From the NCBI GenBank assembly GCA_030040475.1, contig JASHTQ010000076.1, positions 1 through 23,573 on the forward strand: a DNA stretch of 23,573 bases. The letters are read 5' to 3'. Below are positions 14,458-20,003 of the stretch, piece by piece. The notes beneath the pieces are model-generated. The model was given only the letters and a program-made list of their open reading frames with translations. It was not told where the DNA came from and did not search any database. Position 1 is the stretch's first letter; each line of letters starts with the position of its first letter. The translations under genes were made by a program, and so were the position numbers. The stretch is from Streptosporangiaceae bacterium (GTDB lineage Bacteria > Actinomycetota > Actinomycetes > Streptosporangiales > Streptosporangiaceae).

Positions 14458-15141
14458 TCAGGAAACCGGGCGCGCCGTGAACCAGGAGTGGTCGTCGGTC
14501 AGGTAGCGGTCGAAGGCGAGTCCGGCCGAGGCCAGGTCCCCGGATAGTTCGGACTCGCCGATCTCGTAGCTTCCCCACGCGTGCGTCCAGACCCGGTCGC
14601 CGACCTGGTACTCGACCTCCAGGAACATCCGGGGCGGCTCCCTGCGGGCCGACCGGACGATCCGGGTGATCCCGCCGGGATCCTCCCGCACCCGGGGCGC
14701 CTGCTCCACGGTCTCGAACCAGCCGGGCGGATTCTGCTGGAACACCGCCACCCCGTCGCCGTCCAGGTGCTCGCGGCAGGTGACCAGGAACTGGTGCCGC
14801 AGCGTCGGATCGACGTTGATCATCGTGCTGGCCAGCAGGACAGCGCCGAAGCTGCGACCCAGGCGCGCCTCCTGGATCGAGGACTGGAAGGTCGGCAGGT
14901 CCGGGACCCGGGCGAGCATCTCGGCCGATTCGTCCACGCCGACCACCGGGTGCCCGAGCGCGGCCAGCGGCCGCAGGATGCGGCCCGTGCCGCAGCCGAG
15001 TTCGAGGATCGACGCGCCCTCCGGGACGGCCCCGTGCACGATCTCCGGCTCCCCGAAGACCGGCAGCAGGGCGTAGAAGTCGACGGCGCAGCCGTCCTCG
15101 GCGATAACTCCGGGGCCGGTGCCCCGCTGGCCTTCATCCAT
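14458..15141 (-). CDS. Class I SAM-dependent methyltransferase
   Basis: A 227-residue soluble methyltransferase. Motif I, ILELGCGTGRI, lies at about residues 45-55 and binds SAM. Asp70 in VVGVDESAEML is the acidic residue at the end of beta-2 that contacts the ribose. ASTMINVDP follows at the usual position of motif IV. The acceptor-binding region after it is not diagnostic, so the substrate (small molecule most likely) is unknown. The start is ATG 15141 with a strong ribosome-binding site (GGGAGG, 7 nt upstream). It is divergent from the K+ transporter gene across 153 bp. I saw no resemblance in that gap to a c-di-AMP (ydaO) riboswitch. Confidence 0.9.
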   Translation of the reverse strand: MDEGQRGTGPGVIAEDGCAVDFYALLPVFGEPEIVHGAVPEGASILELGCGTGRILRPLAALGHPVVGVDESAEMLARVPDLPTFQSSIQEARLGRSFGAVLLASTMINVDPTLRHQFLVTCREHLDGDGVAVFQQNPPGWFETVEQAPRVREDPGGITRIVRSARREPPRMFLEVEYQVGDRVWTHAWGSYEIGESELSGDLASAGLAFDRYLTDDHSWFTARPVS

Positions 15142-15294: not shown

Positions 15295-17241
15295 GTGTCG
15301 GGCGAGGACGGGCAGGGCGGACGGGACGGGCACAGCGGGCAGGCGATGCCCAGGTCGCTGTGGCGTTTCCTGGTTGGGCCGCCGCTGCGCGCACGGGACG
15401 TGTCCCGGGAGCAGATCACCCCGGTGGAGGGGCTGCCGGCGCTGTCCCTTGACGCGCTGACATCGGTCGCCTACGGCCCGGAGGCGATCATCGCCGTGCT
15501 GGCCGTGGCCGGCGCCACCGCCCTGCACCTGGTGCTGCCGATCACGATCGCGATCGTGGCGCTGCTCGCGATCCTGGTGTTCTCCTACCGCCAGGTGATC
15601 GACGCCTACCCGGGCGGCGGCGGGGCCTACGCGGTGTCGCGGGACAACCTGGGGGCCGGCGCCAGCCTGCTCGCCGGCGCCTCGCTCGTGGTGGACTACA
15701 CGCTGACCGTCGCGGTCTCCATCGCGGCCGGCGTCGCGTCGCTGACCTCGGCCTTCCCCGGCCTGACCGCGGCCACCGTGCCGATCTGCCTGGCCATCCT
15801 CGCCGTGATCATGCTGCTGAACCTGCGCGGCCTGGCCGACGCGGCCCGTGGCTTCCTGCTGCCCACGATGGTGTTCATCATCGGGCTGATGATCGTGATC
15901 GCGATCGGCCTGATCCACCCGCTGGCCCTGCACGCCACCCAGCCGGCCCGCTCGCAGCTGCCCGCGAAGGCCCTCGAGGCGGTGAGCGTGCTGCTCGTGC
16001 TGAAGGCGTTCTCCGCCGGGTGCAGCGCGCTGACCGGCGTGGAGGCGATCGCGAACGGCGTGCCGCTGTTTAAGGAACCTCGGGTGAAAAGAGCCAAGAT
16101 CACCGAGGTGCTGCTGGGTTCCATCCTCGGCGTGCTGCTGCTCGGCCTGGCTATCCTTGCCGACCGCTGGCACATCGGGCCCAGGTCCGGGCAGACCGTG
16201 CTGAGCCAGATCGTCGGCGAGGCCGTCGGCAGGGGCTGGGCCTACTACGTGCTGTCCGTGACGATCACCGTCGTCCTCGCGCTGGCGGCCAACACCTCCT
16301 TCGGCGGCCTGCCGGTCCTTGCCAGCCTGCTGGCCAGGGACAACTACCTGCCGCATCTGTTCGCGCTGCGCGATGACCGGCAGGTGTTCGCGTCCGGCAT
16401 CTGGGCGCTGGCCATCCTGGCCGCGGCGCTGCTGATCGCGGTCGACGGCAACACCCTCACCCTGATCCCGCTGTACGCGATCGGCGTGTTCACCGGCTTC
16501 ACGCTGTCCCAGTCCGGCCTGGTCGTGCACTGGTGGCGGCACCGCCCCGCAGGCTGGCGGCGCCGGGCGATGATCAACGGCACCGGCGCGATCGTGACGG
16601 CCGCCGCCACGGTGATCTTCCTGATCACCAAGTTCACCGAGGGCGCCTGGGTGGTGGTGGCGGCGGTGCCGAGCTTCATCTTCCTGTTCACCAGGATCCA
16701 CAGGTACTACCACCTGGCCGCGGAGATGCTCGGCTTCGATCGCACCCCCGCCAGGCCCCAGGCCAGACCCACTATCGTCGTCGTCCCCATAGCCAGCGTC
16801 TCCCGGCTGGCCGAGCGCGGGATATCGGCCGCGCTGTCGATCAGCGATCAGGTCATCGCCGTCACCTCGATCCCAGAGGAGGCAACCGGGGAGGGCGGCG
16901 ATACCCGCGGGGCGGACAAGGCGCGCAAGATCCAGGAGGAGTGGGCCAGCTGGAACCCCGGCGTGCCGCTGCGACTGCTGCGCACCGAGTACGCCTCCGT
17001 CGCCGACCCCCTGCTCGCCTTCGTCGACGAGCTCGGCGAACAGCACTCCGAGCAGATCATGGTGCTGATCCCGGTGGCGGTGCCGAACCGGCTACGCTAT
17101 CGCCCGCTGCACAACCACTTCGACCTCGTGCTAACCGCCGCGCTGCGCAACCGCCCCGACGTTCTCACCGCCCGGGTCGAGATGACGCTGCAAGTGCCGG
17201 GCCGCAAGCACGGCGCGAGGGACCCCGGGGAGAAGGCGTGA
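15295..17241 (+). CDS. kimA-like: KimA/YdaO-like potassium transporter (APC superfamily)
   Basis: A 648-residue membrane protein with about 12 helices and a cytoplasmic C-terminal alpha/beta domain (about 485-630). It closely follows the B. subtilis KimA pattern: FLVGPPL, SLDALTSVAYG, SYRQVIDAYPGGGGAYAVSRDNLG, VDYTLTVAVSIAAG, LKAFSAGCSALTGVEAIANG and LAANTSFGGLP. KimA is a high-affinity proton-coupled K+ importer inhibited by c-di-AMP. Residues implicated in its ion path (Asp36, Tyr43, Asp117, Tyr118, Ser125, from memory) correspond to Asp53, Tyr60, Asp134, Tyr135 and Ser142, a constant offset of 17. Starting at ATG 15346 would make the numbering identical to KimA, so that start is an alternative. 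GTG 15295 is preferred because of the well-spaced -10. The stop overlaps the start of the next gene by 4 bp. Confidence 0.85.
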   Translation: MSGEDGQGGRDGHSGQAMPRSLWRFLVGPPLRARDVSREQITPVEGLPALSLDALTSVAYGPEAIIAVLAVAGATALHLVLPITIAIVALLAILVFSYRQVIDAYPGGGGAYAVSRDNLGAGASLLAGASLVVDYTLTVAVSIAAGVASLTSAFPGLTAATVPICLAILAVIMLLNLRGLADAARGFLLPTMVFIIGLMIVIAIGLIHPLALHATQPARSQLPAKALEAVSVLLVLKAFSAGCSALTGVEAIANGVPLFKEPRVKRAKITEVLLGSILGVLLLGLAILADRWHIGPRSGQTVLSQIVGEAVGRGWAYYVLSVTITVVLALAANTSFGGLPVLASLLARDNYLPHLFALRDDRQVFASGIWALAILAAALLIAVDGNTLTLIPLYAIGVFTGFTLSQSGLVVHWWRHRPAGWRRRAMINGTGAIVTAAATVIFLITKFTEGAWVVVAAVPSFIFLFTRIHRYYHLAAEMLGFDRTPARPQARPTIVVVPIASVSRLAERGISAALSISDQVIAVTSIPEEATGEGGDTRGADKARKIQEEWASWNPGVPLRLLRTEYASVADPLLAFVDELGEQHSEQIMVLIPVAVPNRLRYRPLHNHFDLVLTAALRNRPDVLTARVEMTLQVPGRKHGARDPGEKA

Positions 17242-18359
17242 TAGTTCCGGAGGCGGCCCGGACGGTGGCCGCGGTGATCGGCGGGCTGCTCGTGCTGACC
17301 GCCATCGGCAGCGTGGTCGGCACGCTGATCGTGTCGCGCTCGGTCAGCGGCCGGCTGATGCGCTGGGTGGACAAGGCCGTGGACATGACGTACCAGGCGC
17401 TGCTCAGCCGCATCGATGAGTACAAGCGGCGCGACCGGCTGCTCGCCACCCAGGCGGCGGCGCTGCTGATGGCCCAGCTTGTCGCCTGGCTGGGGGTCGT
17501 CTTCGTCGGGTACGGCTTCCTGCTCTGGCCGTTCGCGGCCCGTGGCGCCGCGTCGGCCTTCACCGACGCCGGGTCCTCGATGTTCACCCTGGGTTTCGCC
17601 GAACCCCCTGGCGCGGTACCCGCCGCGATCGTCTTCCTCGCCGCGGCGAGCGGCCTGGTCATAGTCACCCTGCAGATCGCCTACCTGCCCACCCTGTACG
17701 CGGCGTTCAACCGCAGGGAGACCGAGGTGGCGCTGCTCAACGCGCGGGCCGGCATCCCGTCCTGGGGCCCCGAGCTGCTGGCCAGAACCCACTACGGGCT
17801 CGGCTCCGGCTCGACCTTGGACACGATGCCCGACCTGTACGCCCAGTGGGAACGCTGGGCCGCCGACGTGTCGGAAAGCCACACCACCTACCTGCCGCTT
17901 GTCCGGTTCCGTTCCCCCGGCGCGCTGTCGTCCTGGGCGACCGCGCTGCTCGCCGTGCTGGACTCCGCCTCGCTGTTCCTCTCGCTGTCCCCCGAGATCG
18001 CGCCGACCGTCCCGGCCCGGCTGTGCCTGCGCGGCGGGTTCCAGTGCTTCAACCGGGTCGCGACGGCGATGGGCATCGACATGCCGAGCGAGATGGCTGT
18101 CCCGCCGGGAGAGATCAGCCTGACCTACGCCGAGTTCGAGGAGGCGGTGGACCGGATGAAGGAGGTCGGCTTCCCCGTCGAGCGCGACCCGAAGGATGCC
18201 TGGCCGGATTTCGTCGGCTGGCGGGCCAACTACGAGCAGGCCGCCTACGCCGTGGCCGCCGCGGTCTACGCCGTGCCCGCGCTGTGGTCGGGCCCGCGCC
18301 GTCACCCCATCGCGCCGATCCCCCCCATCCGGCCCGCCCCCGGCCGCCCGCCGAAGTAG
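17238..18359 (+). CDS. Potassium-channel-like membrane protein with altered selectivity filter
   Basis: A 373-residue protein. Membrane segments are visible at about 7-33, 72-98 and 128-152. Between the last two lies a pore-loop-like segment, AFTDAGSSMFTLGFAEPPG (residues 107-125), followed by an inner helix ending YLPTLYAAFNRRETEVALLNARAG. That whole arrangement matches bacterial Ion_trans_2 channel-like proteins, whose loop usually ends TLGFGD or TLGYGD. Here the filter reads T117-L-G-F-A-E-P, with Ala for the last Gly and Glu for Asp. The large C-terminal part (about 165-373) is soluble and has no domain I recognise. GTG 17238 overlaps the transporter stop (GTGA), implying translational coupling. 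The open frame extends far upstream only as a shadow of the transporter. It could be a subunit or regulator of the transporter rather than a channel (inference). Confidence 0.75.
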   Translation: MIVPEAARTVAAVIGGLLVLTAIGSVVGTLIVSRSVSGRLMRWVDKAVDMTYQALLSRIDEYKRRDRLLATQAAALLMAQLVAWLGVVFVGYGFLLWPFAARGAASAFTDAGSSMFTLGFAEPPGAVPAAIVFLAAASGLVIVTLQIAYLPTLYAAFNRRETEVALLNARAGIPSWGPELLARTHYGLGSGSTLDTMPDLYAQWERWAADVSESHTTYLPLVRFRSPGALSSWATALLAVLDSASLFLSLSPEIAPTVPARLCLRGGFQCFNRVATAMGIDMPSEMAVPPGEISLTYAEFEEAVDRMKEVGFPVERDPKDAWPDFVGWRANYEQAAYAVAAAVYAVPALWSGPRRHPIAPIPPIRPAPGRPPK

Positions 18360-18583
18360 CAGGGTCCGGTGACCGTCCCGCGCCGCACCGCGCCGTACTT
18401 TCTTCCGCCGAACGGGAAGTGGTCACTCTCCCGGGCACCTGCTTCCTCCCAGGGGCGATCACCCGGTAAGCTCAGGGGTTCTGTCACGATGACGAAGGAC
18501 CCACGGAATAAGGCACAGTTACGGATTGCGTCCATGGCACGCCGCTGTTCGCCGCAGACAGGCGCACCGGGCGCACTCTGCGT

Positions 18584-18589
18584 TACTAT
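18584..18589 (+). promoter_or_regulatory. -10 element of the flavoprotein gene (leaderless)
   Basis: TACTAT, a clear TANNNT match, ends 7 nt before GTG 18597. No ribosome-binding site precedes that GTG. The remainder of the 237-bp gap (18360-18596) holds no recognisable gene or riboswitch, although the flavoprotein frame is open through it. Confidence 0.55.
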
Positions 18590-18596
18590 CCGCGCC

Positions 18597-20003
18597 GTGG
18601 ACCCAATCGACTCTCTTGCCAGCCGCCTGCCGCGCGGCGCCGTCACGACCGACCCCCAGATCCTGCGCGAACGCGCGATCGACAGCTGGACCCTTGGCCT
18701 CCTGCGCCGGGTCAGGGGCGACGAACTGCTCGAGCCCGCCGCGGTGGTCTTCCCCACCTGCACCGAGGACGTGGCCACCGTGCTGTCCTGGGCCGCGCCC
18801 ATGCGGATACCCGTGATCACCCGCGGCGGCGGGTCCGGCGTGTGCGGCGGCGCCAGCGGCGCCAAGGCGTCCGTCGTGCTCGACATGTCCCGGATGGACA
18901 AGGTCACCGACGTCGACCTCACCTCGCGCGTGGTGCACGTCCAGGCCGGCGTGCGCGGCGACCAGCTGGAAGACGTGCTGGCCGCCGACGGCCTGACCGT
19001 CGGCCACTACCCGCAGTCGCTCGCGATGTCCACGGTGGGCGGCTGGATCGCCGCGTCCTCCGCCGGGCAGGCCTCCACCGGCTTCGGGGCCATCGAGGAC
19101 GTGCTGCTCGGGCTGACCGCGGTCCTGCCGACCGGCCGGATCCTGCGCTGCCGGCCGGTGCCACGCTCGGCCGCCGGGCCGGACCTGCGGCGGCTGCTCG
19201 TCGGGTCCGAGGGGACGTTCGCCGTGGTGACCGAGGCGACGCTGGCCTGCCGGGCCAGGCCCGCGGGCTGGCAGTGGCTGGCCTTCGGGTTCCCCTCGTT
19301 CGACGCGCTCGCCGACGGTCTGCGCGACGCCGTGCGCGCGGAGACCGGGGCGGTCATCTGCCGCGGGTACGACCCGACCGACGCCCAGCTGAGCTTCGGG
19401 CCGCTCGGCCACTCCAGTGGGTGCGTGGGGCTGCTCGGCTTCCCCGTCGGCCTGCCGGGCCTGCAGGAGAGGATGTCGGCCGCCACGGAGGCAATCGGGG
19501 CGGCCGGCACCCGGCTCGACTCTTCCTACGGAGAGCACTGGTGGCGGCACCGCAACGACGCCGTGGACACCTACGCCAGGATCATGGGGCCGGATCGCGC
19601 GTTCGGATCCGGGGTCGTGGTCGACACGATGGAGGTCGCTGGCCTGTGGTCCGCCGTGCCGCGGCTGTACGCGGGCGTGCGGAGCGCCCTGGCCGCGACC
19701 GCCCAGGCGGTGGGGTGCCACCTGTCCCATCTGTACCCGTCGGGCTCCTCGCTGTACTTCACGTTCCTGATCAGCGGGGCCGACGACAGGGACGCCGAGA
19801 CCCGGTACCTTGCAGCCTGGGAGCAGGCCGTGCGAAGCTGCGCGGCCATGGGCGGAACGATGACCCACCACCACGGCGTGGGGCGCCTGAAGTCCGCGTA
19901 CATGCAGGGCGAGCTCGGCGAGACCGGGGTGGAGTTGCTGCGCAGGATCAAGGCGTCCTTCGATCCTGACGGGATCATGAACCCCCGGGTCCTGCTGCCG
20001 TGA
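18597..20003 (+). CDS. FAD-binding oxidoreductase, alkylglycerone-phosphate-synthase-like
   Basis: A 468-residue VAO-type flavoprotein. The FAD pyrophosphate loop is VITRGGGSGVCGG (about 73-85), with SLAMSTVGGWIAASSAGQ and LLVGSEGTFAVVTEATL as further FAD-domain signatures. The C-terminus carries THHHGVGRLK (His424-426) and ends IKASFDPDGIMNPRVLLP. The triple-His motif is the mark of alkyldihydroxyacetonephosphate synthases, which make the ether bond in ether lipids, but it also occurs in uncharacterised relatives such as mycobacterial Rv2251. The start GTG 18597 is chosen because TACTAT lies 7 nt upstream and the sequence before it has no family resemblance; an upstream in-frame start would add 76 residues. 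It converges on a glpD-type gene, whose product makes dihydroxyacetone phosphate. An ether-lipid role is inference. Confidence 0.85.
   Translation: MDPIDSLASRLPRGAVTTDPQILRERAIDSWTLGLLRRVRGDELLEPAAVVFPTCTEDVATVLSWAAPMRIPVITRGGGSGVCGGASGAKASVVLDMSRMDKVTDVDLTSRVVHVQAGVRGDQLEDVLAADGLTVGHYPQSLAMSTVGGWIAASSAGQASTGFGAIEDVLLGLTAVLPTGRILRCRPVPRSAAGPDLRRLLVGSEGTFAVVTEATLACRARPAGWQWLAFGFPSFDALADGLRDAVRAETGAVICRGYDPTDAQLSFGPLGHSSGCVGLLGFPVGLPGLQERMSAATEAIGAAGTRLDSSYGEHWWRHRNDAVDTYARIMGPDRAFGSGVVVDTMEVAGLWSAVPRLYAGVRSALAATAQAVGCHLSHLYPSGSSLYFTFLISGADDRDAETRYLAAWEQAVRSCAAMGGTMTHHHGVGRLKSAYMQGELGETGVELLRRIKASFDPDGIMNPRVLLP

Follow-up and report, generated by a model that had tools for sequence, protein, structure and literature searches.

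A KimA-type potassium importer gene overlapping the gene of a predicted P-loop channel-like protein in a Streptosporangiaceae bacterium

Introduction

KimA of Bacillus subtilis is a K+ importer of the KUP family, represented in the PDB by entries 6s3k, 8b70 and 8b71. The accessible parts of the KimA papers (PMC6994465, PMC10284832, PMC10117811) portray it as a homodimer without a channel-like partner. For the Streptomyces proteins Vnz_27465 and Vnz_15480, which are likewise actinobacterial KimA homologues, the accessible part of PMC10117811 does not mention such a partner either. Here we analysed a stretch of 23,573 nucleotides from a Streptosporangiaceae bacterium (GenBank assembly GCA_030040475.1, contig JASHTQ010000076.1, positions 1 to 23,573 of the forward strand; hereafter the window), in which a KimA-type gene (gene 1) is followed by an overlapping gene for a channel-like membrane protein (gene 2). 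A previous sequence-only reading had suggested that the two genes could form a K+ uptake module in which gene 2 is a leak valve, a gating subunit or a sensor. We consider it probable that they are the overlapping pair of a single clade, in which a KimA importer and an independent channel-like protein act in parallel, rather than a transporter with an obligatory subunit. A literature search, which took in few subscription journals, found no paper describing such a pair.

Two kinds of pore-loop (P-loop) protein serve as references for gene 2. The two-helix K+ channels of Ion_trans_2 (PF07885), NaK and MloK1 share an outer helix, a pore helix, a filter position and an inner helix. KtrB and TrkH of the Trk/Ktr superfamily consist of four linked repeats in one chain and, according to the available part of PMC5449183, rely on a single conserved glycine per pore loop.

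Results

Gene 1 encodes a KimA-type transporter

Gene 1 (15295..17241, plus strand) encodes 648 amino acids when read from the GTG at 15295; an in-frame ATG at 15346 provides an alternative start that would give 631 amino acids. Compared with the PDB sequences it had KimA (6s3k/8b70/8b71) as its sole match, with query residues 20-627 aligned to chain residues 3-600 at an E-value of 1.5e-132. In Pfam it is a member of AA_permease_2 (4e-27). Using a constant offset of 17, we mapped 14 functional positions of Bacillus KimA, taken from the accessible parts of PMC6994465 and PMC10284832, onto gene 1. Eleven were identical (D36, Y43, D117, Y118, T121, S125, T230, E233, N237, T317 and Y377). The residues of the K+ site and gate as well as the proton residue were all kept: D53, Y60, T138, T247, Y394 and E250 in gene 1 correspond to D36, Y43, T121, T230, Y377 and E233. 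From the polar residues of the cytoplasmic tunnel (D117, Y118, E233, N237, T317, S320, Q324) five of seven were identical, while the tunnel-lining S320 and Q324 are replaced by G337 and V341. The third difference concerns R337, which is H354 in gene 1. In Bacillus KimA this arginine is a membrane-domain contact of cyclic di-adenosine monophosphate (c-di-AMP) that raises the affinity; one of these papers reports weaker binding for R337A, yet calls the residue not essential for inhibition. H354 therefore does not decide KimA membership.

Gene 1 is thus a member of the KimA subfamily of KUP and would act as a proton-coupled K+ importer. The earlier claim of a match along the whole length including the ion-path residues stands for nearly the full length and for the K+ and H+ sites but not for the two tunnel residues.

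KimA-like paralogues can be paired in other genomes. One locus (L168 1-7601) holds open frames of 860 and 834 amino acids that face each other, with an HTH_31/DUF5753 gene and a Methyltransf_19 gene between them, and another (L167) holds two convergent frames of 857 and 817 amino acids. Judged by match coordinates, G612:C170 carries two divergent copies separated by about 110 bases, and in G531:C75 two copies follow one another in tandem with about 40 bases between them.

Gene 2 starts within the stop codon of gene 1

Gene 2 (17238..18359, plus strand) encodes 373 amino acids. Its start codon GTG (17238-17240) and the KimA stop codon TGA (17239-17241) have the four bases GTGA (17238..17241) in common. 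Both open reading frames are present and the overlap is read directly in the DNA, as the sequence-only reading had described. A Shine-Dalgarno-like GGGGAG (17227..17232) lies within the 3' end of the KimA gene, five bases 5' of the GTG. The two genes look co-transcribed and may be expressed together. The locus differs from KimA of Bacillus subtilis in that a second gene overlaps the 3' end of the KimA gene.

That gene 2 is a real gene follows from its homologues, of which there were at least 7,306 among 8,000 candidates scored. We found no tblastn match at 1e-5 in a plasmid collection. One gene-2 copy (L034/L142) is broken by a stop or a frame break, the protein being otherwise 78-79% identical.

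Gene 2 resembles P-loop channels and lacks the K+ filter signature

The predicted structure model of gene 2 (mean predicted local distance difference test, pLDDT, 89.2) begins with an N-terminal helix that we took as transmembrane (residues 5-31; 17250..17330). An outer helix (residues 72-99; 17451..17534) and a pore helix (residues 104-116; 17547..17585) follow, the latter within a fragment of the model that resembles P-loop channels. After the filter position TLGFAE, placed by alignments at residues 117-122 (17586..17603), a long inner helix runs into a YLPTLYAAFNRRE linker (residues 126-171; 17613..17750). The C-terminal domain (residues 177-342; 17766..18263) is modelled as all-helical and had no family match in the Pfam scan. 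Gene 2 is thus predicted to have the P-loop fold of Ion_trans_2-like channels, with outer helix, re-entrant pore helix, filter and inner helix. It differs from these channels in its filter, which is TLGFAE instead of a canonical sequence such as TVGFGD, in the additional N-terminal helix and in the helical C-terminal domain. Searches with gene 2 gave no match in Pfam (0 families at E <= 1), NCBIfam or, as a single sequence, the PDB, and gene 2 itself is not within the gathering cut-off of Ion_trans_2. The family as a whole has no fitting Pfam model either (54 members scanned; NCBIfam was tried with gene 2 only).

We then compared the filter across the family using an alignment (A2) built from 44 of 80 gene-2 loci and nine of 120 listed proteins, together with alignment A3. 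Within residues 117-122 only G119 was invariant, with T117 present in at least 90%. Unlike the filter, the YLPTLYAAFNRRE linker that follows the inner helix is almost fixed, as are numerous positions towards the C-terminus. T[LVI]G[FY] occurred in 198 of 224 distinct family sequences, and T[LVIT]G[FY]G in two of them. The K+ filter T-x-G-[YF]-G is not present in gene 2, which reads TLGFA. On these counts we rejected the reading of gene 2 as a canonical K+ channel.

Two of 20 distant homologues, taken from further actinobacterial genomes, have an intact K+ filter: L148 (705-1712) with TVGFGD and L156 (539-1306) with TIGFGE. Both passed the Ion_trans_2 cut-off (9.8e-10 and 4.3e-6), which a third, L157, just missed (21.5 versus 22.5 bits), and both were retrieved with gene 2 as query (G373, residues 10-371, 4.6e-30; G592, residues 10-246, 9.6e-21). 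The remaining members mostly carry TLG[FY] followed by a two-residue gap relative to these two. Compared with its canonical-filter relatives, gene 2 has no second glycine, has Glu in place of Asp and has an outer loop two residues shorter. In one sub-branch, whose identity to gene 2 is 59-65%, TLGF is replaced by [EQFT][IF]G, with motifs such as WEIG or WQIG. At L007, L016, L017, L019, L023 and L025 the replacement is W[EQF]IG, and the rest of the protein is 59-64% identical to gene 2. L148 and L156 could serve as reference channels in functional work on the family.

Judged from these alignments, the channel resemblance of the family is real and the K+ selectivity signature is absent. The best explanation is that gene 2 is derived from, or sister to, the Ion_trans_2 K+ channels. 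The sequence-only reading had seen a pore-loop protein with the inner helix of bacterial K+ channels; the model supports the channel-like architecture but TLGFAE is not a K+ signature. A single filter glycine per pore loop, as in gene 2, is also found in KtrB and TrkH. This likeness is one of analogy and does not imply homology. Each gene-2 chain holds a single pore loop instead of four repeats, and KtrB/TrkH were not among the profile matches listed.

The pair was not seen at the loci examined in other genomes

To see whether the pair is general we compared loci from both sides. The gene-2 loci were the best 80 of 128 from other genomes, some of them from the same genome; their upstream flank exceeded 1 kb in 69 and 2.5 kb in 62, and was 1 kb or less in 11. 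Within these flanks KimA was found at none of the 80 loci. As a control the KimA scan included the window, which scored 1270 bits, while the next best match had an E-value of 1.6. Gene-2 neighbourhoods were not conserved, with the commonest neighbour cluster occurring at eight of the 80 loci. Five upstream neighbours that we scanned were an L,D-transpeptidase, a D-Ala-D-Ala carboxypeptidase, a short-chain dehydrogenase, a major facilitator superfamily protein and an epimerase; four downstream neighbours comprised a MarR regulator, an NDK and two proteins without match.

Conversely, gene 2 stood beside KimA at none of 32 distinct KimA loci. These were 30 loci from one search plus L111 and L115 from a second, with L112-L114 set aside as repeats; 30 of the 32 had downstream sequence, whereas L085 and L087 stop at the KimA end or shortly after it. 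Five KimA orthologues with 68-73% identity and downstream sequence had no same-strand open reading frame of at least 90 amino acids overlapping the KimA stop. The sequence-only reading had suggested counting how often a gene-2 homologue follows KimA in other genomes; with 0 of the 30 informative loci, recurrence across lineages was not borne out.

At the level of genomes we used two samples, which have genome G003 in common. The G003 family sample comprised 341 genomes; in 150 of these we located the KimA matches with an E-value of 1e-100 or better, and all 341 were covered by a stricter scan at 1e-175. Gene 2 was present in 33 of the 341 genomes (1e-40 or better) and KimA in 48 of the 150 (1e-100 or better). 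The 19 genomes with both genes always had them on different contigs, and the closest intact gene-2 match in the sample was 73% identical, with a broken copy at 78%. The phylum sample of 396 genomes had gene 2 in 51 (1e-15), KimA in 140 (1e-60) and both in 43. For 36 of these 43 the place of KimA was among the matches listed; two of the 36 had both genes on one contig, separated by about 30 kb in G381 and by about 116 kb in G592. Contig sharing is weaker evidence than the comparison of loci, since many of the assemblies are fragmented and gene 2 sometimes sits at the edge of a contig (e.g. G131:C564). KimA was commoner in genomes with gene 2 (43 of 51 versus 97 of 345 others; Fisher p = 1.5e-14), an uncorrected association that genome size and kinship could cause alone.

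The absence of KimA at the 80 gene-2 loci and of gene 2 at the 32 KimA loci, as well as the separate placing of the two genes in the genome samples, leave a general KimA-channel module unsupported.

The overlap appears to be kept within one clade

In the clade of the window the overlap seems to be kept, as far as indirect marks tell. We read these marks from protein clusters, 120 listed for gene 2 and 120 for KimA. The clade (about 80% identity and up) was labelled Streptosporangiaceae from one close entry, P0005, a Streptosporangiaceae bacterium. An NTGA overlap requires A as first base of the second codon of gene 2, such that an [MV]I start can serve as a mark. This start was present in 13 of the 14 closest gene-2 clusters (P0002-P0015, 80-94% identity), the fourteenth entry beginning later, whereas in the other 106 clusters an xV start prevailed (95) and an MI start occurred in three. 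For KimA, the C-terminal residue was A, S or P in all 22 closest clusters (P0122-P0143, 82% and up) versus 20 of the 98 others (24 including T); the tail differs among P0144-P0160. Furthermore, the single-contig entries P0011 (gene 2, 84%) and P0140 (KimA, 82%) come from contigs that are both 5246 long. When lengths were shifted by 1-60, no match arose in the top clade in 120 trials, with 0.67 matches expected over the whole lists. Taken together, these marks point to an overlap that has been retained as a trait of one clade.

Discussion

The observations are best accommodated by an importer and an independent channel-like protein acting in parallel. A local rearrangement would have put gene 2, a member of an actinobacterial P-loop channel-like family that stands without KimA elsewhere, behind the KimA gene in one clade. 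Both proteins would then be made together and may act side by side in K+ or osmotic homeostasis. Gene 2 would probably assemble with itself into a homotetramer whose single-glycine filter is relaxed, or else be a non-conducting sensor.

A closer partnership restricted to the clade seems unlikely to us. In it gene 2 would serve KimA as a subunit for regulation or gating, or as its K+ sensor, and the four-base overlap would be kept by selection for stoichiometric synthesis. The apparent retention of the overlap, the Shine-Dalgarno-like site, which together with the overlap fits translational coupling, and the genome-level co-occurrence of both genes speak for such a partnership. Against it stand the gene-2 copies of the other genomes analysed, which do not adjoin KimA, the KimA orthologues at 68-73% identity that have no gene 2, and the fact that four-base gene overlaps are common in bacterial operons. 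We are just as reserved about a wider version. In this version one soil actinobacterial clade would have captured a single-glycine channel-like protein as a dedicated, co-translated KimA partner, so that symporter and pore make up one K+ system. On the scale of the family, thousands of proteins would form an undescribed homotetrameric pore-loop branch with a filter shrunk to one glycine, the homotetrameric equivalent of the filter in KtrB/TrkH.

Somewhat more doubtful is a leak valve, i.e. a true K+-conducting channel that lets out the K+ imported by KimA. The P-loop fold of the modelled pore fragment and the relatives with canonical filter are in line with it, but gene 2 lacks the second filter glycine and the Asp, and the 59-65% identical sub-branch has lost the TLGF motif. 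With the filter altered in this way, selective K+ conduction is not likely to be the conserved task. A mere accident, in which a neutral rearrangement without common physiology became fixed in a small clade, is very improbable: the unconserved gene-2 neighbourhoods would fit, but both proteins resemble cation transport proteins and the overlap is apparently kept within the clade.

A dedicated pore partner, if true, would change the picture of KimA as a homodimer without partner, but the cross-genome comparison speaks against such a partner in general. Of more lasting interest is the gene-2 family, which is large, has no fitting Pfam model and is tied to K+ channels via its intact-filter members. 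It keeps one filter glycine while linker and C-terminal positions are almost fixed. With this family it can be tested directly whether a pore-loop protein is able to retain its job once the selectivity filter is lost.

Neighbouring genes

No Rfam element matched at gathering score in the window. Upstream of the KimA gene lies a divergent methyltransferase gene (14458-15141, minus strand). Downstream of gene 2 follows an open frame for an oxidase linked to flavin adenine dinucleotide (18369-20003, plus strand), and we found no terminator-like or promoter-like site that would place it in or out of the KimA-gene 2 unit. Its listed start is only ten bases past gene 2; judged from the sequence, the true start is probably at about 18597.
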